From contig JAQIBT010000026.1 in assembly GCA_027858915.1 (NCBI GenBank), forward strand, positions 1-33,461: DNA of 33,461 nucleotides, read 5' to 3'. Shown here in pieces: positions 6,584 to 15,690 of the stretch. This stretch comes from Salinisphaera sp. (GTDB lineage Bacteria; Pseudomonadota; Gammaproteobacteria; Nevskiales; Salinisphaeraceae). The notes beneath the pieces were generated by a model, which had not been told where the DNA came from, did no database searches, and saw only the letters and a list, made by a program, of their open reading frames with translations. Both the position numbers and the translations under genes were made by a program. How positions within the stretch are numbered: the first letter of the stretch is position 1; each line of letters starts with the position of its first letter.

Positions 6584-8059
6584 TCACGCAAGCGCCAGTC
6601 GGAAGTTGGCTTGTGTGCCGGCGCCTGGCGTGCTCACCAGCGTCAACCGGCTGTCGTGGCGCTCGCAGATTTCGGCTACGATCGCCAGGCCCAGACCGGT
6701 ACCGTCGCCGGGTGTGCGCCCGCTGGCTGTGCGATAGAAACGCTGGGTGACCAGCGGCAGTTCCTCGGCCGATAGGCCAACGCCGTCGTCGATGACGCTG
6801 ACCGCCAGATCGCCTGCCTCGGCGTGCGCTCTGATCTGGACCCTGCCGCCGGGCGCGGTAGCGCGCAGGGCGTTGTCGACCAGATTGGTGAGCGCGCGGT
6901 CGATCATTTCCAGATCGGCCGCGACCTGCAGCGTGGTGTCGGCACATTCCACGCTCAGGGCCACGCCGGCGTCATGGGCCTGCGGGCCAAACTTGCCGGC
7001 GATGTCGTGGGCCAGTTCGGCAAATGGAAAGGTGTCGATACGCAATGGCCGTTCCGAGACATCCACGCGCGCCAGCAGCGAGAGCTGATCGGCCAGATGC
7101 GACAGACGCGACACATTGTTGAGGATCGCGTCCAGCTGTTCGCGTTGATTGTGTTCGGTCGATGACAGACCCGCGCGCAGCTGCTGGGCATAGCCGCGCA
7201 GTGAAGTCAGGGGGGTGCGGAAATCGTGCGACAGATTGGCCACCAGTTCGCGGCGCTGGCGGTCGTTCTCGCGCAGCGCGCCCAGCTGCGCCTCAATGGT
7301 CGCCGCCAGTTCATTGAAGGCACGGCTGGCCTGGCCGATCTCGTCGTCGGCAACCGGTTCGATACGCTGGCTGTAGTCGCCTCGGGCAAACCGCTGTACG
7401 GCACGCGTCAAGCGCGAAAAACGACGCGTCAACAAGGCAAACAACAACAATCCAAGGCCGGCCGACAGCAGCAGGGCCACGCCGCCGGCAATCAGCAGCG
7501 ACCGCGAGATACTGCTGGTTTGCCACATGCCTACCATCGACATGTGGGTTTTGGCTTCGAGCACCACGAACAGATAACCCGGCGTGTGTGCCGGGCCGAT
7601 GGTCACCGGTGCCGCCGAGAACACGTTTTTGCCGCCGTGGCAGGGAACAGTGGCATAAACCGGCAACATGGGCATGGCCGAAAGCAGTTCGTGTATCGCG
7701 GTCAGGCTGATGGTTTGGCCGACTCCGCACTTGCCGTGGCCATAGGCGTCGATCACTTTTCCATGCGCATCCAGTACATAGAGTGAGAGAGCGGGATTGA
7801 TGGTCATGATGCGCTTGGCGGCTTCGTTGGTGCCGGCGCTATCGACCCCGGCCGACAGCGGCGCCTCCAGCACGTGTTTGAGGTTGGACGCCAGATTCAG
7901 CTGGCTGCGCTGGAGCCATTCCCGGCCCAGATGATCGAACTGGCCGACGGCAATCCAGGCGGTGCCGAGCGACATCACGATCAGGCTCGCGAGATACACG
8001 AGCGCCAGGCGCGCATACAGGCTGCGGAACAGGCGCCCTGCACGGCCAGGCCGGCTCAT
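6584..8059 (-). CDS. membrane sensor histidine kinase
   Basis: A 491-residue two-component sensor. Membrane helices lie at about 17-38 and 188-210 and enclose a periplasmic domain of about 150 residues. That domain carries two cysteines (Cys111, Cys140) and a Met cluster (residues 173-178). A HAMP domain (about 211-265) leads to the dimerisation/phosphoacceptor helix with NLSHDFRTPLTSL (His278). The ATPase domain has an N box around Asn396, DDGVG at 424-428 and GDGTGLGLAI at 451-460. The start overlaps the regulator stop by ATGA. By position it senses an envelope signal, possibly oxidant stress. The cysteines and Mets are candidate sensing residues (inference). Confidence 0.92.
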   Translation of the reverse strand: MSRPGRAGRLFRSLYARLALVYLASLIVMSLGTAWIAVGQFDHLGREWLQRSQLNLASNLKHVLEAPLSAGVDSAGTNEAAKRIMTINPALSLYVLDAHGKVIDAYGHGKCGVGQTISLTAIHELLSAMPMLPVYATVPCHGGKNVFSAAPVTIGPAHTPGYLFVVLEAKTHMSMVGMWQTSSISRSLLIAGGVALLLSAGLGLLLFALLTRRFSRLTRAVQRFARGDYSQRIEPVADDEIGQASRAFNELAATIEAQLGALRENDRQRRELVANLSHDFRTPLTSLRGYAQQLRAGLSSTEHNQREQLDAILNNVSRLSHLADQLSLLARVDVSERPLRIDTFPFAELAHDIAGKFGPQAHDAGVALSVECADTTLQVAADLEMIDRALTNLVDNALRATAPGGRVQIRAHAEAGDLAVSVIDDGVGLSAEELPLVTQRFYRTASGRTPGDGTGLGLAIVAEICERHDSRLTLVSTPGAGTQANFRLALA

Positions 8060-8802
8060 GGCTGGTGATCCCTGCGCTCGGAAACCGCTGATCCGGTGGT
8101 CACGGCGTCGGTGAAGCGATAACCCACGCCCCAGACGGTATGGATATAGCGCGGATGCGCGGGGTCGGCTTCGATCTTGCCGCGCAGACGGTTGATATGG
8201 GTGTTCACGGTATGGTCAAAACCGTCGAACTCTGGCCCCCACACTCGATCCAGCAGATTCCCGCGCGTGAAGCCGTGGCCCGGATGCTGGGCGAACAGTG
8301 CAAGCAGGGCGAATTCCTTGGCGGTGAGTGCGACCGGCTGGCCGCGCAACACGGCCCGATGGGCGTCGATATCCACCACCAGCTCGCCGGTGCGGATCGT
8401 CGCAGAGGCTGGCTCGGTCGCAGGCGGTCGGGCGCGCCGACGCAGCAGGGCCTGGACACGGGCGAGCAGGATATCGGCCTCGAACGGCTTGGTGATGTAG
8501 TCGTCGGCGCCGATTTCCAATCCCTGAACCACGGCCTGGGTGCTGGCTTTCGCGGTAAGCATGACCAGAGGAATATCGACATCACGCGCTCGTATCTCGC
8601 GGCAGACGGTCAAGCCGCCCACCCCAGGCAGCATCAGATCCAGCAATATCAGGGAAGCGCTGGACCAGCGCGTCAGTGCCGTTTCACCGTCGCTGACCCA
8701 GTCGACGGCATAGCCGGCCTTGCCGAGAATCGCGACCAGCAAGCGCCCAATATCGGGATTGTCTTCCACGCAGAGGATGGATTGCGGTATCGGTTGTGAC
8801 AT
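8056..8802 (-). CDS. OmpR-family response regulator
   Basis: A 248-residue transcription regulator. The receiver domain (8-125) has the acidic pair Glu13/Asp14, phosphoacceptor Asp55 (LILLDLMLPG), Thr of MLTAKAS and Lys of DDYITKPFE. A winged-helix DNA-binding domain (about 135-235) shows the typical LTAKEFALLALFAQHPG and HTVNTHINRLRGKIE blocks and ends YIHTVWGVGYRF. It is the first gene of the regulator-kinase-DUF1223 unit and is divergent from the Met-rich peptide and methionine-sulfoxide repair genes, which are the obvious candidate targets. Confidence 0.95.
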   Translation of the reverse strand: MSQPIPQSILCVEDNPDIGRLLVAILGKAGYAVDWVSDGETALTRWSSASLILLDLMLPGVGGLTVCREIRARDVDIPLVMLTAKASTQAVVQGLEIGADDYITKPFEADILLARVQALLRRRARPPATEPASATIRTGELVVDIDAHRAVLRGQPVALTAKEFALLALFAQHPGHGFTRGNLLDRVWGPEFDGFDHTVNTHINRLRGKIEADPAHPRYIHTVWGVGYRFTDAVTTGSAVSERRDHQP

Positions 8803-8917: not shown

Positions 8918-9020
8918 GATTGCCGACCTGGCCGCGGCTAACGTGATTGTCACCGGAATCATAAAAAGCATCCGGCGTTGAACCACTTTTGCGAGGGCCA
9001 GGCGCCCGAGGAGTCAGATC

Positions 9021-9314
9021 ATCTCGAAGCACACGTATCAATCCGAGGCCCGATTCGTTGCCATTGCTGTTACGGCCCTGATGGCAGGCGGGATGAGCCT
9101 GTCGGCAATGGCCATGGATAACAATATGTCGCATGACAGCATGAAAAGCGACCATATGAGCGGCAACTCAATGTCCAAGGATGGGATGTCGCACGACTTG
9201 ATGGGCAAGGACAAGAGCATGAGCCACGGCTCCATGCAAAAGAATGGCATGAAGAGTGATTCCATGAACCACGACAAGATGAAAGACGGCTCGATGAGCA
9301 GCGGCGACAAGTAA
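9021..9314 (+). CDS. methionine-rich MXXXX-repeat periplasmic peptide, apparent ATC start
   Basis: A small exported protein whose mature part (about 66 residues) is a run of five-residue units beginning with Met (MSHDS, MKSDH, MSKDG, MNHDK and so on). It has 13 Met, or about one residue in five, and no Cys. This matches the pentapeptide MXKDX-repeat family. The only canonical start is ATG at 9081, but that begins inside the hydrophobic core of a signal peptide. The frame upstream encodes ISKHTYQSEARFVAIAVTALMAGG. A strong GAGGAG site (9008-9013) is 7 bases before an ATC codon at 9021, and no ATG, GTG or TTG lies between the upstream stop (8979) and 9081. Start is therefore proposed at ATC (9018 or 9021), giving a complete signal peptide cut after AMA. 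Likely role: oxidant sink and substrate of the downstream reductases. Confidence 0.7.
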   Translation: MSKHTYQSEARFVAIAVTALMAGGMSLSAMAMDNNMSHDSMKSDHMSGNSMSKDGMSHDLMGKDKSMSHGSMQKNGMKSDSMNHDKMKDGSMSSGDK

Positions 9315-9374: not shown

Positions 9375-10277
9375 ATGGCCCTCTCAATCGATAATCCAAC
9401 GGACAGCGCAATCGACACGCACGCCAGTGCTGGGTCGGATTTACCGGTGCGGTCGGCGGTTATCAAGCGCCACGGTGTATTTACGCGTATCTGGCACTGG
9501 GTCAATGCGCTATGTCTGCTGGTGCTGTTGATGAGCGGGCTGCAGATATTCAATGCCCACCCCGCGCTTTACTGGGGCCACGGTTCAACGTTCGCGCATC
9601 CGGTACTGGCGATCGGCGCCTACCGCGCGGCGGACGGTCAACCGGTCGGGACATTGGATATCGGCCATCATCGTTTCATTACCACCGGCGTGCTGGGCGT
9701 GTCGTCCGACAACGGCCAGACGGTGGCACGGGCGTTTCCGAGCTGGGCCACGCTGCCCGGATCGCAGTGGTTGTCGCTGGGCCGTGAATGGCACTTTACG
9801 GCGGCCTGGGTGTTTACTGCCATGCTGGTGTCCTACCTGATTTATTCCGTGATCAGTGGGCGTCGACGCCGATTGATTGCGCCAACCAGCCGTGATGCAC
9901 GCACGTTCGGGCATGCCATCGTCGAACACCTGCGGTTTCGGTTCGAGCGCGTCCGGCATTACAACCCGCTGCAGAAGCTGACGTATCTGGCGGTGTTGTT
10001 CGGATTGCTGCCTTTGATGATTGCCACGGGCCTGTCGATGTCGCCAACCATGGATGCCGCATGGCCCTGGCTGCCGGCGGTTCTGGGTGGGCACCAGAGT
10101 GCGCGCACGCTGCACTTCATCAGCGCGTTTCTGCTGTTTGGTTTCTTCCTGGTCCATGTCGCCCTGGTGCTGGTGTCGGGACTGTTCAACAACCTGCGGT
10201 CGATGACTACCGGCGGCTATCGTATTGCCGATGCGTCCGAGGATGAATCGAATCGACAAGGGAAGCGCAGGTCATGA
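9375..10277 (+). CDS. membrane cytochrome b (b561 type), electron donor to the Mo enzyme
   Basis: A 300-residue integral membrane cytochrome. Helices are visible at about 41-58 (HWVNALCLLVLLMSGLQIF), 138-158 (WHFTAAWVFTAMLVSYLIYSV), 202-220 and 242-265 (HFISAFLLFGFFLVHVALVLVSG). Their His residues (His41, WHF, LHF, VHV) are the expected heme b ligands. A loop of about 75 residues separates helices one and two. It should pass electrons from the quinone pool to the periplasmic molybdoenzyme encoded next. It would play the part MsrQ plays for MsrP, although it belongs to the b561-like family and not to the MsrQ family. Its stop overlaps the next start (ATGA at 10274-10277). Confidence 0.85.
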   Translation: MALSIDNPTDSAIDTHASAGSDLPVRSAVIKRHGVFTRIWHWVNALCLLVLLMSGLQIFNAHPALYWGHGSTFAHPVLAIGAYRAADGQPVGTLDIGHHRFITTGVLGVSSDNGQTVARAFPSWATLPGSQWLSLGREWHFTAAWVFTAMLVSYLIYSVISGRRRRLIAPTSRDARTFGHAIVEHLRFRFERVRHYNPLQKLTYLAVLFGLLPLMIATGLSMSPTMDAAWPWLPAVLGGHQSARTLHFISAFLLFGFFLVHVALVLVSGLFNNLRSMTTGGYRIADASEDESNRQGKRRS

Positions 10278-11083
10278 AGCCTCAGAATGATAAGACAGGG
10301 CTGATCGTGCCCGATGTGGCGCGTCGCCGATTGATTGCCGGCCTGGCTACCGGCTTCGGCGCGTTGGGCGCCAGCGTGCTGCTGGGCGGCTGCGATCGTC
10401 TGGTCACCAGCGATGCCGCACAGCGCGTTGTGGGTTCTACGCAGAAGCTGACCCAGGCCGCGCAGCGGCTGGTCGCCTCGCGCGAATCGCTGGCCCGTGA
10501 GTTCGATGCCAGCCAGATCGCGCCGACTTTTCGCACGAACGGCACCACGAACCCGCAGCAAGCCGCGTATCGGCGATTGCTAGCCGATGGCTTTTCGGAT
10601 TGGCAGCTGCGCGTCGGTGGCCTGGTGGAGCGCCCAGCCTCGTTCTCGCTGGCTGCACTCAAGGCCATGCCCTCGCGCACCCAGATTACGCGGCACGACT
10701 GCGTCGAAGGCTGGAGTTGTATTGGCCAGTGGACCGGCGTGCCGCTCACCCAGATACTGGATGCGGTGCGCCCGCAGGATGCGGCCCGCTATGTGATCTT
10801 TCACTGCGCGGATCACGTCTACGGGGCGGCTACCCCCTATTACGAAAGCCTCGATATGGTCGAGGCGCATCATCCGCAGACCATTTTGGCGTATGGATTG
10901 AACCGGCAGACGTTGCCGGTGGCCAACGGTGCGCCGCTGCGGCTGCGCGCCGAACGCCAGCTCGGTTACAAACAGGCCAAATACCTGATGCAGATCGAAC
11001 TGGTCGATTCCTTCGCGAGTATTCAAGGGGGCAAGGGCGGTTGGTGGGAGGACCGCGGTTATCAATGGTGGGCAGGTATATGA
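10274..11083 (+). CDS. molybdopterin-dependent oxidoreductase (sulfite oxidase/MsrP superfamily)
   Basis: A 269-residue enzyme with the oxidoreductase molybdopterin-binding fold. The N-terminus has a twin-arginine stretch (ARRRLIAG, residues 16-23) and a lipobox LLGGC (Cys40), so it is probably exported folded by Tat and perhaps lipid-anchored. Cys143, in HDCVEGWSCIGQWTGVPL, is the expected Mo ligand. E. coli MsrP has a similar CVEAWS block. Together with the coupled cytochrome b and the exported MsrB and MsrA behind it, reduction of methionine sulfoxide in the envelope is the best guess. Another S- or N-oxide is possible. The gene overlaps both neighbours by four bases. Confidence 0.85.
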   Translation: MKPQNDKTGLIVPDVARRRLIAGLATGFGALGASVLLGGCDRLVTSDAAQRVVGSTQKLTQAAQRLVASRESLAREFDASQIAPTFRTNGTTNPQQAAYRRLLADGFSDWQLRVGGLVERPASFSLAALKAMPSRTQITRHDCVEGWSCIGQWTGVPLTQILDAVRPQDAARYVIFHCADHVYGAATPYYESLDMVEAHHPQTILAYGLNRQTLPVANGAPLRLRAERQLGYKQAKYLMQIELVDSFASIQGGKGGWWEDRGYQWWAGI

Positions 11084-11703
11084 AACATCGAGACATGAAC
11101 ACACAAGTTTCCGAACAGCCGTTATCGAACCATGCGCCGGATATCGGCCGACGACGGCTGCTGTTGGGCTCCGGGCTGGCGCTGGGCGCCGGTGCGCTGG
11201 CCAGCATGGGTTGGCCAGCGCGCACGCTGGCCGCCGGTACGTCGTCCATGGTCCAGGTTGTCGTATTCGACGACAACGGCCAGCGGATGGGTGATCGCTT
11301 GGTGCCGCTCGTGCAGAAAAGCGAGGCACAGTGGCGCAAGCAGCTGTCGCCGGCTGCGTATCGCATCCTGCGCGAAGACGGCACCGAGCGTGCGTTCTCG
11401 GGCGATTACAACAAGCCAGACCGGCCCGGATTCTATCGTTGCGTCGGCTGCGGCAATGCGCTCTACGACGCCGCGACGCAGTTTCACAGCGGGACCGGAT
11501 GGCCGAGCTTCTGGCAGCCGATCGCCGAGGAAAACGTCAGTCGACACAGCGATCGTACGTTTTTCATGACGCGGACGAAGATATCCTGCAAGCAGTGCGA
11601 GGGGCATCTCGGGCATGTCTTTAATGACGGCCCGAAGCCGACCGGACTGCGCTACTGCATGGACTCTGTCGCGCTGCGGTTCGTGCCGACCGGCTCGGCC
11701 TGA
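11080..11703 (+). CDS. msrB: exported peptide-methionine (R)-S-oxide reductase MsrB
   Basis: Reduces the R epimer of protein methionine sulfoxide. The 207-residue protein starts with a Tat signal (GRRRLLLGSGLALGAGAL, residues 23-40, then ARTLAAG). The catalytic domain has the family order: GTERAFSGDY, zinc Cys121/Cys124 (CVGC), SGTGWPSFW, zinc Cys170/Cys173 (CKQC), GHLGHVFNDGP and catalytic Cys193 (RYCMDSVAL). No further Cys is present, so there is no resolving cysteine. The ATG at 11080 overlaps the Mo-enzyme stop, and an in-frame ATG at 11095 is an alternative. Most bacterial MsrB proteins are cytoplasmic, so the Tat signal matters: it places the enzyme with the neighbouring envelope proteins. 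Confidence 0.93.
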   Translation: MKHRDMNTQVSEQPLSNHAPDIGRRRLLLGSGLALGAGALASMGWPARTLAAGTSSMVQVVVFDDNGQRMGDRLVPLVQKSEAQWRKQLSPAAYRILREDGTERAFSGDYNKPDRPGFYRCVGCGNALYDAATQFHSGTGWPSFWQPIAEENVSRHSDRTFFMTRTKISCKQCEGHLGHVFNDGPKPTGLRYCMDSVALRFVPTGSA

Positions 11704-11752: not shown

Positions 11753-12469
11753 ATGAACCAGACGCTCACTCATATTCTGCCATCGGCCCTGATTGCAGTG
11801 GCTGGGCTGACGCTGGCCGCCTGCACGCTGGGCACATCGGCCCACGCCAATGATACCTATGGCACGGCGATTCCAGCACCCACGGCCCACTTGGCCAGCC
11901 AGCCGCACGGTACCCAGACTGCGGTGCTGGCCGGCGGTTGTTTCTGGGGCATGGAAGAAGTCTTTCAGCACGTAAAGGGCGTCACCGATGTGGTGTCCGG
12001 CTACGCCGGTGGCGACAAGGCCCATGCCAATTACAGCGATTCCAGCTCGGGCCGCTACGGCGACGCCGAAGCGGTGAAGATCAGCTATGACCCGCAGAGG
12101 ATCAGCTATGCCGAGCTGCTGCGGATCTATTTCTCGGTGGCTCACAACCCGACACAGATCGATCGCCAGGGACCGGATGTCGGCACCCAGTACCGTTCCG
12201 AGGTGTTCGCCGCGGATGCGGCCCAGGCGCGTGTGGCGCGCGATTATATCCAGCAGCTGCAGAAAGCCGACGTATTTGACGCAGCAATCGCGACCAAGGT
12301 GTCAGTCGGCAAGAACTTCTTCCCGGCCGAGTCCTATCATCAGAACTACGCCGAAAGACATCCGGACAGCTACTACATCCGCATCAACGATGCGCCCAAG
12401 GTGGCAGCGCTCGAGACACGGTTTCCGGCCCGTTACCGGGTGCCGCACAAGTTGGCATCCAACGGCTGA
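11753..12469 (+). CDS. msrA: lipoprotein peptide-methionine (S)-S-oxide reductase MsrA
   Basis: Reduces the S epimer of methionine sulfoxide. It has 238 residues. A lipoprotein signal ends at LTLAAC (Cys24), so it is probably anchored to a membrane facing the periplasm. A linker follows, then AVLAGGCFWGMEEVF with catalytic Cys63, VVSGYAGG, GDAEAVKISYDP, and the PTQIDRQGPDVGTQYRS and AESYHQNY blocks of MsrA. There is no other Cys after Cys63, so it is a one-cysteine type. The start has GGAG 8 bases upstream. It is the last gene of the plus-strand operon. It faces the GGDEF gene tail to tail, 12 bases away. Confidence 0.94.
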   Translation: MNQTLTHILPSALIAVAGLTLAACTLGTSAHANDTYGTAIPAPTAHLASQPHGTQTAVLAGGCFWGMEEVFQHVKGVTDVVSGYAGGDKAHANYSDSSSGRYGDAEAVKISYDPQRISYAELLRIYFSVAHNPTQIDRQGPDVGTQYRSEVFAADAAQARVARDYIQQLQKADVFDAAIATKVSVGKNFFPAESYHQNYAERHPDSYYIRINDAPKVAALETRFPARYRVPHKLASNG

Positions 12470-12481
12470 ATTGGTGAGCGT

Positions 12482-14143
12482 TCAGATCGTCGGCGACAGT
12501 TCAGAGCTCTCGGCCGCCACCACCCGGTTGCGGCCGGCGCGCTTGGCGACATAGAGACGTCGATCGGCGTCGTCGATCAGCGTCTCCATATCGTGACCGG
12601 CTGTCGCTTGAATAATGCCGGCGCTGAAGCTGCTGAAGAAAACATCCTGGCCGGCCAGAAACTGAAACTTATTGAACGCCACACGGAGTTCATCGAATAT
12701 ACGTGTGGCCTGCTCGAGTTCGCAATCGTGCATGACGGCGAGAAATTCCTCGCCGCCATATCGACTGACGAGGTCCGAGGTGCGCAGGCGTCGATGCAGC
12801 AGGCTGGCGAGCGCGTGAATGACGTCGTCGCCCACGAGATGGCCGTGGGTATCGTTGACGCTCTTGAAATGGTCGATATCGATCATGGCCGCGCATAGCG
12901 GTATCCCGGTTCGTTGTGCTCGGGCGAGGGACGTGGCCAGTTGTTCCTTGATATCGGCGTGCTTGAGCAGGCCGGTCAGGCCGTCTCGCGAGAGCGCCAT
13001 CGACAGCATGCGCGCACGCCGTGCGCGTGCGGTGACTGCGGCCAACAGTATGTTGGGGGCGATTGGCTTGACCAGGAAATCGTCGCCGGCCTTGGTCATG
13101 GCGACCAATTGCTCGCCGGCATCGCCAACGGCCGACAGATAGACGATCGGTACCTGCAGCCAGCGCGTGTGATAACGCACAATCTGGGCGAGTTCAGGGC
13201 CGCTGCATCGAGGCATGCGTACGTCGAGCACCAACACATCCGGGTTGAAGCTTTCGAGGGTCGACAAGGTTTCTTCCGGCTCGCTCAGCGTTATCACCGA
13301 GAATCCGGCGGTCTCGAGTACCAGCTGATGATAGCCGAGCGCCGCTTGGTCGTCGTCGACAATCAGCACGCGCATCGGCGGGGCTCGATGTCGGCGCAGG
13401 TGATTTTCCAGCACGCCGGCGAGCCGGATCGGCTCGAGCGGCCGGCTGAAGAATCCCTCGACACCGGCGCGCACGGCTCGCAGTTGAACATCGAATTGCT
13501 GCGACTCGTCGGTTGCGAACAACGGCAGGGGCGGGTTCATCTCGCGCTGGATCGCCTCGCCGATGGATAGCCCATCGATGGCGTTTTCACCGCCAAAATG
13601 CAGGTCCAGAATGAGCGCATCCGGGCGCATGTGCCGACAAGCTTCGATAAGCGCTTCGCTGTCCGTGAACAGGGTGGGGCGGTAATGGAAGCTGGCGAGA
13701 ATGTCATGCAGCTGAGCGCCCAGCGTCTTGTCGTCCTCGAGGATATAAATATGCCGCGGATTGAGTGGTTCGATCTGGCCTATCCGCGAAGGCCCCGTCG
13801 GCCTGGCCGGTTGTTTGGACGAGAGGTCGCGCGTCCATGTACTGAGCGTAGACAGGCTGACGCGCAGTTCGTTGATATTGGCATCTGCCGGATCGGCGAG
13901 TAAGGCATCGATGCGTTGCTCGAACAGGTGTGCTGCCTCGCTGATCGAGGCCAGCCCAAAGGTCCCGGCGCCACCGGCGATCTTGTGCAGCCGGTCGCGC
14001 ATCATACGCCATGGATCTGGGTCATGGGAGTCGGGCGGCAGCATTCGGGCGGCGGCAGCCAGCTGTATCAGTTCCTGGTGCAGCCAGACGGTATATTCCT
14101 CGCGCATTTGTGTCAGGCGCGTCTGGATCATCAGTTCAGGCAT
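12482..14143 (-). CDS. HPt-REC-REC-GGDEF diguanylate cyclase
   Basis: A 553-residue signalling protein expected to make cyclic di-GMP. An N-terminal HPt domain has RLHKIAGGAGTFGL (His53). The first receiver (about 131-250) has Asp180, but Lys is replaced by Arg in the FFSRP position. The second receiver (about 257-370) is canonical, with DDD at 263-265, Asp307 and LVKP Lys359. The GGDEF domain (about 385-545) has the active GGEEF at 463-467 and an intact inhibitory I-site RxxD (Arg454-Asp457) five residues before it. The start has a GGAA site. The gene lies 39 bases after the natural stop of the broken GAF-PAS sensor, so the two probably formed one phosphorelay/c-di-GMP unit. Confidence 0.93.
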   Translation of the reverse strand: MPELMIQTRLTQMREEYTVWLHQELIQLAAAARMLPPDSHDPDPWRMMRDRLHKIAGGAGTFGLASISEAAHLFEQRIDALLADPADANINELRVSLSTLSTWTRDLSSKQPARPTGPSRIGQIEPLNPRHIYILEDDKTLGAQLHDILASFHYRPTLFTDSEALIEACRHMRPDALILDLHFGGENAIDGLSIGEAIQREMNPPLPLFATDESQQFDVQLRAVRAGVEGFFSRPLEPIRLAGVLENHLRRHRAPPMRVLIVDDDQAALGYHQLVLETAGFSVITLSEPEETLSTLESFNPDVLVLDVRMPRCSGPELAQIVRYHTRWLQVPIVYLSAVGDAGEQLVAMTKAGDDFLVKPIAPNILLAAVTARARRARMLSMALSRDGLTGLLKHADIKEQLATSLARAQRTGIPLCAAMIDIDHFKSVNDTHGHLVGDDVIHALASLLHRRLRTSDLVSRYGGEEFLAVMHDCELEQATRIFDELRVAFNKFQFLAGQDVFFSSFSAGIIQATAGHDMETLIDDADRRLYVAKRAGRNRVVAAESSELSPTI

Positions 14144-14191
14144 GGAAATTGTTCCAGATAGTCTTGATCTGTGCGGCCAGCGTCATCTTTG

Positions 14192-14224
14192 CAGTGCCTG
14201 TTCCAGTGCCTGTTCCAGTGCCTG
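14192..14224. repeat. 12-base tandem repeat at the 3' end of the GAF-PAS gene
   Basis: CAGTGCCTGTTC occurs almost three times in a row. On the coding strand it gives ALEQALEQALQ, a heptad-like helix. Its length is a multiple of three, so changes in copy number would keep the frame. Confidence 0.85.
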
Positions 14225-14245
14225 GAGTTGGCTGCGGTCGATGGC

Positions 14246-14268
14246 GATACCCAGATACCCAGATACCC
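14246..14268. repeat. 8-base tandem repeat causing a frameshift
   Basis: GATACCCA is present three times, the last copy short by one base. Because 8 is not a multiple of 3, gain or loss of a unit switches the reading frame at the end of the second PAS domain. Confidence 0.85.
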
Positions 14269-15690
14269 GGTCACCGAACCTGCCCGGTCGTGGATACCGC
14301 TGATTACCAGCCGTACAAGACGCTGTTCGCCGTCTTGACGCACAAACGTCCAGTCGCGACTTTCGGTTTCTCCGCGGGACGGACGCGCCGTCAGCGCCGC
14401 GATGTCAGCAAAAGGCGTGCCGTATTCAGCGCTGATCGGTGCGGCGTATTCTGCGATTTCGTCCCGCCTGCAGAAACTGGCCGGCGTGATCTGCCCGACC
14501 GCCTGCTCGGCGGTGTAACCGAGCAGCCGTTCAGCGCCCGGATTGAATACCGTGATCTGGCCGTGACGATCGGTCGCTATGATTGCGACCTCGGTCGATG
14601 CATCGATCACCGCCTGCAGGTGTTGGCGTACGTCGGCCAGCTCCTGTTCGCGCTGCTTGCGCTCGGTCACATCGTGCATGACCGCCACTGCCCCGAGCCG
14701 CGTGTGTCGAAGAATGCCCGCGCATTGCTGGTAATGGAACGCGGTGGCTGGCCGCGAGCCTTGATGCATATTTCCGCGTCGCGCACGATGTCGCCATTCC
14801 AGGCACGCAACAACGGTACCTGCGACGGCGCCAGCGGGGTGCTGCAGTCGGCTTCAAACAGGCCGAAATGCGCGGCCCATTGCTCGGGGGGCAGCTGCAT
14901 CGGATCGCTGCCGTGCCAGGCACGGGCACGCGAATTGAACAGGCTCAGCTGGCCATTGATGTCGCTGGCCACAACGCCTTCTGGGATAACCTCCAACAGA
15001 CTGTCGAGCATCGCCTGCCGTGTTTCGGCCTTGCGTGTCTGCGCTCGCTGCTCGATCAGACGCCGCGCGAGCATGGCGAGATCCTCAAGTGCCGATAGCT
15101 GATCCGGTTCCAGCGTGCGGCGCACGGTATCGAATACGCACAGCGTACCGAGACAATGTCCGCCTTCCACAGTGAGCGGAGTGCCGGTATAGAAACGGAT
15201 ATGCGGGGCACCGGTCACGGCGGCCAGCGAGGCAAACCGGTGGTCCTGGCTGGCATCCGGAAGATAGACCGGTTCGCCGCTGGTCACGACGCCGCCGCAG
15301 GGTGCGTGCGCGCGCGGCAACTCGTCGACGCCCAGGCCGACGCCGCTCTTGATCCACAGACGATGCTCGTCGATCAGCGAGATGACCGCGAAGGGCGTGT
15401 GGCACAGTTGTGCCGCCAACCGCGCGATCGCATCGAATTCGGCCTCGGCTGCGCTGTCGATGATCCCGTATTCAGCAAGCGCGGCCAGCCGGGCCGCTTC
15501 CCGGTCCGGGTGTTCACGCATGGGTTGGGCTGTCGCTTTCAATGGAATGTTTCGGGCGCTGGTATCCGTTATCGCTGTATCGGACATGCGGCCGATTTCT
15601 TGATAGCTGGCTGAAGGTGGGCGCTATACAGACTGCATGCGCGCTAACACGGTGGCCTGGCCGTTCGAGGAACGCGTATGCTCGCGAGTG

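Follow-up and report, generated by a model that had tools for sequence, protein, structure and literature searches.

The closest described systems to the locus examined here are MrpX with YedYZ of Azospira suillum PS and BcrXQP of Brucella melitensis, to which excerpts of the reports ascribe hypochlorite scavenging or protection (PMC8315932, PMC4623255). Precedents for the start codon come from other genes. In a section of PMC1805508, infC of both Escherichia coli and Bacillus subtilis starts at AUU, and three B. subtilis start codons are re-annotated as ATC, ATT, and CTG, so that annotated ATC starts exist. An AUU start of pncA (bbe22) in Borrelia burgdorferi is described, in part of PMC13398362, as backed by genetics, biochemistry, and structure.

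Here we analyzed a 33,461-nucleotide stretch of a Salinisphaera sp. genome (hereafter, the window), in which, as in the MrpX/YedYZ and BcrXQP systems, the gene for a secreted Met-rich repeat peptide adjoins a methionine sulfoxide reductase of the MsrP/MsrQ type. The system, of the known MrpX/BcrX type, here has a variant start codon: unlike MrpX and BcrXQP, the window gene reads ATC at its start. The window also differs in having a two-component neighbor, as opposed to the sigma/anti-sigma pair of the described systems, and in that MsrB and MsrA genes follow in the same direction. The gene resembles infC in having an AUN codon after a good Shine-Dalgarno (SD) sequence, with ATC also at infC of the same genome and family, but the infC codon is conserved, whereas ATC at the Met-rich gene occurred only in the window genome among the relatives read. 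It shares an AUN start with pncA, which databases list from a downstream start according to the same excerpt (PMC13398362); the pncA start is experimentally backed, whereas the ATC start of the Met-rich gene is predicted from sequence.

Gene content of the locus

By its repeats and a signal peptide judged by eye, the Met-rich gene is an MrpX/BcrX-like gene for a secreted Met-rich peptide. Counted from 9018, 16 of its 98 codons specify Met in a short, secreted repeat protein, and genes with PF01292 and PF00174 domains lie directly downstream, forming a neighborhood of the MsrP/MsrQ type (Table 1). The peptide matched NCBIfam TIGR02953 (penta_MxKDx) at an E-value of 4e-09 with a score under the curated cut-off, and was therefore not counted as a member of that family. 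Against the NCBIfam MsrP equivalog model, the MsrP-like gene reached 111.7 bits, short of the cut-off at 207. By analogy with MrpX and BcrX, the peptide would be oxidized instead of other proteins and recycled by the reductase. Based on its position, the divergent OmpR-type response regulator is a candidate regulator of the Met-rich operon. A consensus scan of the locus found no promoter or terminator.

Table 1. Features of the locus (window positions) and of two further genes of the same genome with candidate non-AUG starts
Feature	Position	Strand	Evidence
Sensor histidine kinase paired with the response regulator	6584..8059	-	PF00512, PF02518, PF00672
Divergent OmpR-type response regulator	8056..8802	-	PF00072, PF00486
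In-frame TGA preceding the Met-rich frame	8979..8981	+	sequence
SD-like GAGGAG	9008..9013	+	motif class common to the ATG of 37/37 kept relatives, at 6-10 nt
First ATC, less likely start	9018..9020	+	4 nt spacing, outside the relatives' 6-10 nt
Second ATC, most likely start codon, matches the relatives' ATG	9021..9023	+	7 nt from GAGGAG
Met-rich peptide CDS, 97 codons and stop	9021..9314	+	frame; TIGR02953 36.3 bits, cut-off 41
Predicted signal peptide, 31 residues, cleavage after AMA	9021..9113	+	judged by eye
First in-frame ATG; product without charged N-terminus	9081..9083	+	used as start by no kept relative
Cytochrome b561-type membrane subunit	9375..10277	+	PF01292 84.7 bits, cut-off 30.1
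MsrP-like molybdopterin oxidoreductase	10274..11083	+	PF00174 115.7 bits, cut-off 24
MsrB with N-terminal extension	11092..11703 (range as searched plus stop)	+	TIGR00357 171.8 bits, cut-off 113.05
MsrA with N-terminal signal-like sequence	11753..12469	+	TIGR00401 159.8 bits, cut-off 108.1
yraN (UPF0102), L239	own contig C58:68949-69305	-	NF009150 103.4 bits, cut-off 81
rluC, CTG candidate start	L247:4462-5403, own contig C160:124462-125403	-	GGAG 6 nt before CTG

Start region and the starts of relatives

Stops at 8979 and at 9312-9314 bound the open Met-rich frame (8982-9311), whose codon score was 0.26 versus -0.04 for the best other frame. A first-pass annotation had proposed that the gene starts at an ATC, and the sequence agrees with its description: ATG, GTG, and TTG are absent from the 33 in-frame codons scanned between the upstream TGA and ATG 9081, and GAGGAG is separated from ATC 9018 by 4 nt and from ATC 9021 by 7 nt. 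Read from 9021, the predicted protein is ISKHTYQSEARFVAIAVTALMAGGMSLSAMA, then MDNNMSHDSM and more Met-rich repeats, such that a start at the ATC site would join a full signal peptide (by eye) to the repeat protein, as claimed, while ATG 9081 as the start would drop the charged N-terminus. The start-region leader folded worse than its shuffles (z +2.0; 200 of 200 shuffles were at least as stable), and this lesser folding would favor initiation. TTG 8978 and TTG 8989, in other frames, were rejected as upstream starts, being without an SD-like motif and never joining the repeat frame. The latter opens a 30-codon frame that runs to a TGA at 9079-9081 and overlaps ATG 9081 as TGATG (window 8989-9083), probably by chance.

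Relatives were gathered with a cytochrome query against a genome collection of 84,980 species, from which the best 80 of 507 relatives were used; with the window and loci L008, L010, and L013, this gave 84 loci. A rule of at least 6 Met per 40 residues near the cytochrome gene recovered a Met-rich frame in 42 of them, window included, and none in the remaining 42. Set aside from the 42 were L070, L081, and L099, which by eye have no secreted Met-rich protein, and L060, a different Met-rich protein with an ATG that lacks GGAG/GAGG. All 37 kept syntenic Met-rich relatives (from the best 80 of 507 and the three added loci), which are not independent and include close kin such as Rhizobium loci, had ATG 6-10 nt after GGAG/GAGG, placing the arrangement of SD and ATC in the window beyond chance. 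The kept locus L024 is a tandem neighbor of its genome's gene, L012, which has ATG at 7 nt, and L011 (same genome as L043) was ambiguous, since either an ATG immediately behind GAGGAG or a GTG at 6 nt could serve. Signal peptides of the Salinisphaera relatives L009, L010, and L013 were 29-30 residues by eye, compared to 31 from 9021.

By this comparison the homologous start is ATC 9021, neither 9018 nor ATG 9081, as its 7 nt spacing fits the 6-10 nt range and the 4 nt of 9018 does not. On the same grounds, ATC is the derived state in the window genome, one base off the ATG of relatives. The idea that orthologs might all begin at the 9081 position was contradicted by the 37 of 37 kept relatives with ATG at the 9021 position, which bear out a start at the ATC site. 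Of the two readings offered in the first-pass annotation, a start-codon change is now better supported than translational control, since ATC at the Met-rich gene was seen only in the window genome among the relatives read. The infC-like conservation of a non-AUG codon was not found at this gene, where ATG is universal in the kept relatives (37/37), and with ATC here in no other genome examined, a function of the codon itself is without comparative support.

Cytochrome b phylogeny and search for the same allele

For the cytochrome b reconstruction, 94 loci were considered, 38 sequences were readable by motif, and 30 entered the tree. The window sequence formed a long branch (0.4) in a supported set of eight (99/96) that also contained six Salinisphaera loci and L015, the second copy from the window genome. 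The gene at the Met-rich position was low-complexity and not Met-rich in the six read of the other seven members (all but L014). Met-rich relatives were placed outside this set, which left no close relative in which the gene is Met-rich. The second copy, on own contig C70 (96824-99946), adjoins a ModA-like gene, and both here and in five relatives (L003, L005, L023, L025, and L034) cytochrome b is preceded by a low-complexity gene that is secreted-looking and non-Met-rich. In searches for a second copy of the ATC allele, viral contigs held no exact match to a 27-base query, megablast matched nothing in plasmids, and the 17 family genomes gave no close match; a same-species allele was not found.

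infC and the initiation machinery

The infC gene of the window genome has no standard codon near its start and reads AAAGGAGG-ATGCTGCA-ATC. In the family, infC was present in 17 genomes, with 16 readable (L149 is cut by a contig end), and in all 16 ATC follows an SD, 55-56 codons ahead of the conserved RIMDYGK motif. In-frame TTG, ATG, or GTG codons lie further upstream in six loci (L136, L137, L140, L141, L146, and L147), and most family loci also have standard codons downstream; ATC is the codon common to all. In the class-level sample, infC was in 55 of 56 genomes, and the codon after the SD in the 26 readable of 30 fetched loci was ATC (20), ATT (5), or GTG (1). The loci with these counts are L103 and L134-L148 (family) and L180-L209 (class). 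The gene had been invoked earlier as an example of a start at AUU, its textbook codon; the non-AUG start stands, with ATC rather than AUU in the window's family (16/16). Given ATC after the SD in every readable family genome and in 20 of 26 class loci, AUC very likely initiates in the lineage of the window.

Neither an altered initiator tRNA nor an altered IF3 was upheld. ARAGORN, applied to 30 of 42 tRNA loci, found three different Met-CAT genes, and L127 (77 nt) looks ordinary, with a GGG/CCC anticodon stem that we take to be typical of initiator tRNA. In IF3, four positions have a residue shared by at most one other aligned IF3, none of them at a position of known importance, and the sequence looks ordinary. 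Weak pairing at the third base of the start codon is disfavored by IF3, and output from AUC in E. coli is about one percent of that from AUG or less. In the in vitro work of PMC10158994, going by part of its text, fMet initiation at AUU with anticodon CAU drops as IF3 rises, and the pair of AUC with anticodon CAU is omitted from its table. According to a report cited in an excerpt of PMC9845219, AUU or AUC cuts initiation by only 10-20% in chloroplast petD, and weak initiation at AUC may therefore not hold in every system.

Genome-wide scans, yraN, and rluC

A strict scan of 1,214,781 bases (1.21 Mb) of the window genome, window included, looked for gene-like frames of at least 60 codons in which GGAG/GAGG precedes the codon by 5-9 nt and the stretch between the upstream stop and the 14th codon downstream is free of ATG, GTG, and TTG, with infC as a positive control. 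Among 40 matches, four had ATC: the Met-rich gene (two positions), yraN, and infC. The Met-rich gene is like infC here, with no standard start and a near-cognate codon at good SD spacing. Six other near-cognate matches were rluC (CTG), one each in C10 and C91 (better ATG downstream), two in C2 (one gene, internal, near a contig end), and an ATA in C58 in a frame of doubtful coding status. The control scan of 800,000 bases (0.80 Mb) of relative G013 gave 26 matches, two with ATC, of which one is in a gene taken for phoH from its sequence, with TTG 25 codons on, and the other has no clear coding signal (0.16 versus 0.15). Inspection covered the near-cognate matches; the other 30 own and 22 control matches have other codons. 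Three ATC genes, infC being one, against none convincing in G013 are too few to call the genomes different. Apparent AUC starts on ordinary genes are rare in the window genome yet not restricted to the Met-rich gene.

Across the whole genome, AAGGAG-N5-8-ATC occurred at 44 sites and the same pattern in reverse at 30. Of the 44 sites, 30 were fetched, and these included one open frame that had no standard start upstream, L164, with ATG as its next codon. In looser scans, antisense frames, internal codons, and 5′ leaders made up most of the matches listed.

The yraN gene of the window genome has only an ATC after an SD, 6 nt from GGAG, while in 15 of 15 relatives an ATG, GTG, or TTG lies no more than about eight codons away. 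It is a weaker case than the Met-rich gene, since the position of the standard start varies among the relatives and an SD is absent from most. For rluC, ATG, GTG, and TTG are absent near the start in the window genome, and CTG, 20 codons ahead of the RLDNF motif, was present in all 13 Salinisphaera genomes that gave a match (L326-L338), some of which also have GTG or TTG nearby; three loci from other genera (L339-L341) have GTG in place of CTG. We regard rluC as a candidate for a conserved CUG start. The TGTAAT just ahead of the CTG could alternatively be a promoter -10 box.

Interpretation of the ATC start

The best and least assuming account is a changed start codon with weak residual initiation at AUC, to which we assign a probability of roughly 0.55. 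An ancestral ATG at 9021 would have changed to ATC by a single base, with ribosomes binding GAGGAG and presumably starting with fMet at AUC 9021 using the ordinary initiator tRNA. The rate would be well below that of AUG and probably held down by IF3, resulting in a full signal peptide at low expression, and with inefficient AUC initiation low output is the expected state. In the periplasm, the peptide would, on the model of MrpX and BcrX, take oxidation for other proteins and be recycled by the downstream methionine sulfoxide reductase. Intact neighbors with their expected domains argue for such residual initiation, as does yraN of the same genome with its lone ATC after an SD.

The same ATC could instead mark a loss of the start, with AUC too weak, the peptide effectively unmade, and the gene a recent pseudogene among operon members that are all intact. 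We consider this rather unlikely. Confinement of ATC at this gene to the window genome among the relatives read would fit, the second cytochrome b copy on C70 (L015) may relax the need for the operon, and atypical-start genes in the older E. coli database Colibri are, in the section available of PMC1805508, mostly defective or of unknown function. However, all 97 codons are open, the codon score is gene-like, and signal peptide and repeats are intact, although a very recent loss would look alike. A true ATG at 9021, obscured by an assembly or sequencing error, is improbable. The genome is a single draft of 169 contigs, searches gave no further genome of the species, and all kept relatives have ATG; against this, single-base errors are rare in such assemblies, completeness is rated at 99.6% and contamination at 2.48%, the conserved genes searched in the window are unbroken, and yraN is likewise without a standard start.

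Selected translational control, in which AUC would couple peptide output to the IF3 level as at infC, has to be considered in light of infC itself, as its apparent AUC start, common to all 16 family genomes that could be read, makes IF3-sensitive initiation at the Met-rich gene possible, and the SD and its spacing to 9021 are good. Yet ATC is not conserved at the Met-rich gene, no link between IF3 and oxidant stress is known in this group of bacteria, and the divergent two-component system already offers transcriptional control, which makes this reading very unlikely. Most improbable is reinitiation, whereby ribosomes would leave the short frame from TTG 8989 at its TGA and restart at ATG 9081. 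The TGATG overlap is present in the sequence, but neither TTG 8989 nor ATG 9081 is preceded by an SD-like motif, the product would be without a charged N-terminus, and 37 of 37 kept relatives start at the 9021 position.

To our knowledge, natural AUC starts outside infC are rarely documented, and the titles and abstracts among the literature matches listed reported neither an AUC start on a Met-rich peptide or yraN nor a CUG start on rluC. A broader and doubtful reading is that AUC serves as a start codon outside infC in the window species (at the Met-rich gene and yraN, with CUG at rluC across the genus), which would put a small gene set, including an envelope oxidant-defense peptide, under an infC-like, IF3-sensitive regime. 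Should AUC initiate, the Met-rich gene, yraN, and infC would form a one-genome set for testing the effect of IF3 on non-AUG output; should it fail to, the window would hold a clean start-loss allele in a bleach-defense operon. In either case, gene finders limited to ATG, GTG, and TTG would either overlook the gene or place its start at 9081, at the cost of the signal peptide.

Elsewhere in the window, a short tandem repeat (HWNRHWNRHC in the protein) lies at about 14190-14230, close to where the minus-strand frame 14131-14769 has its 3′ end.
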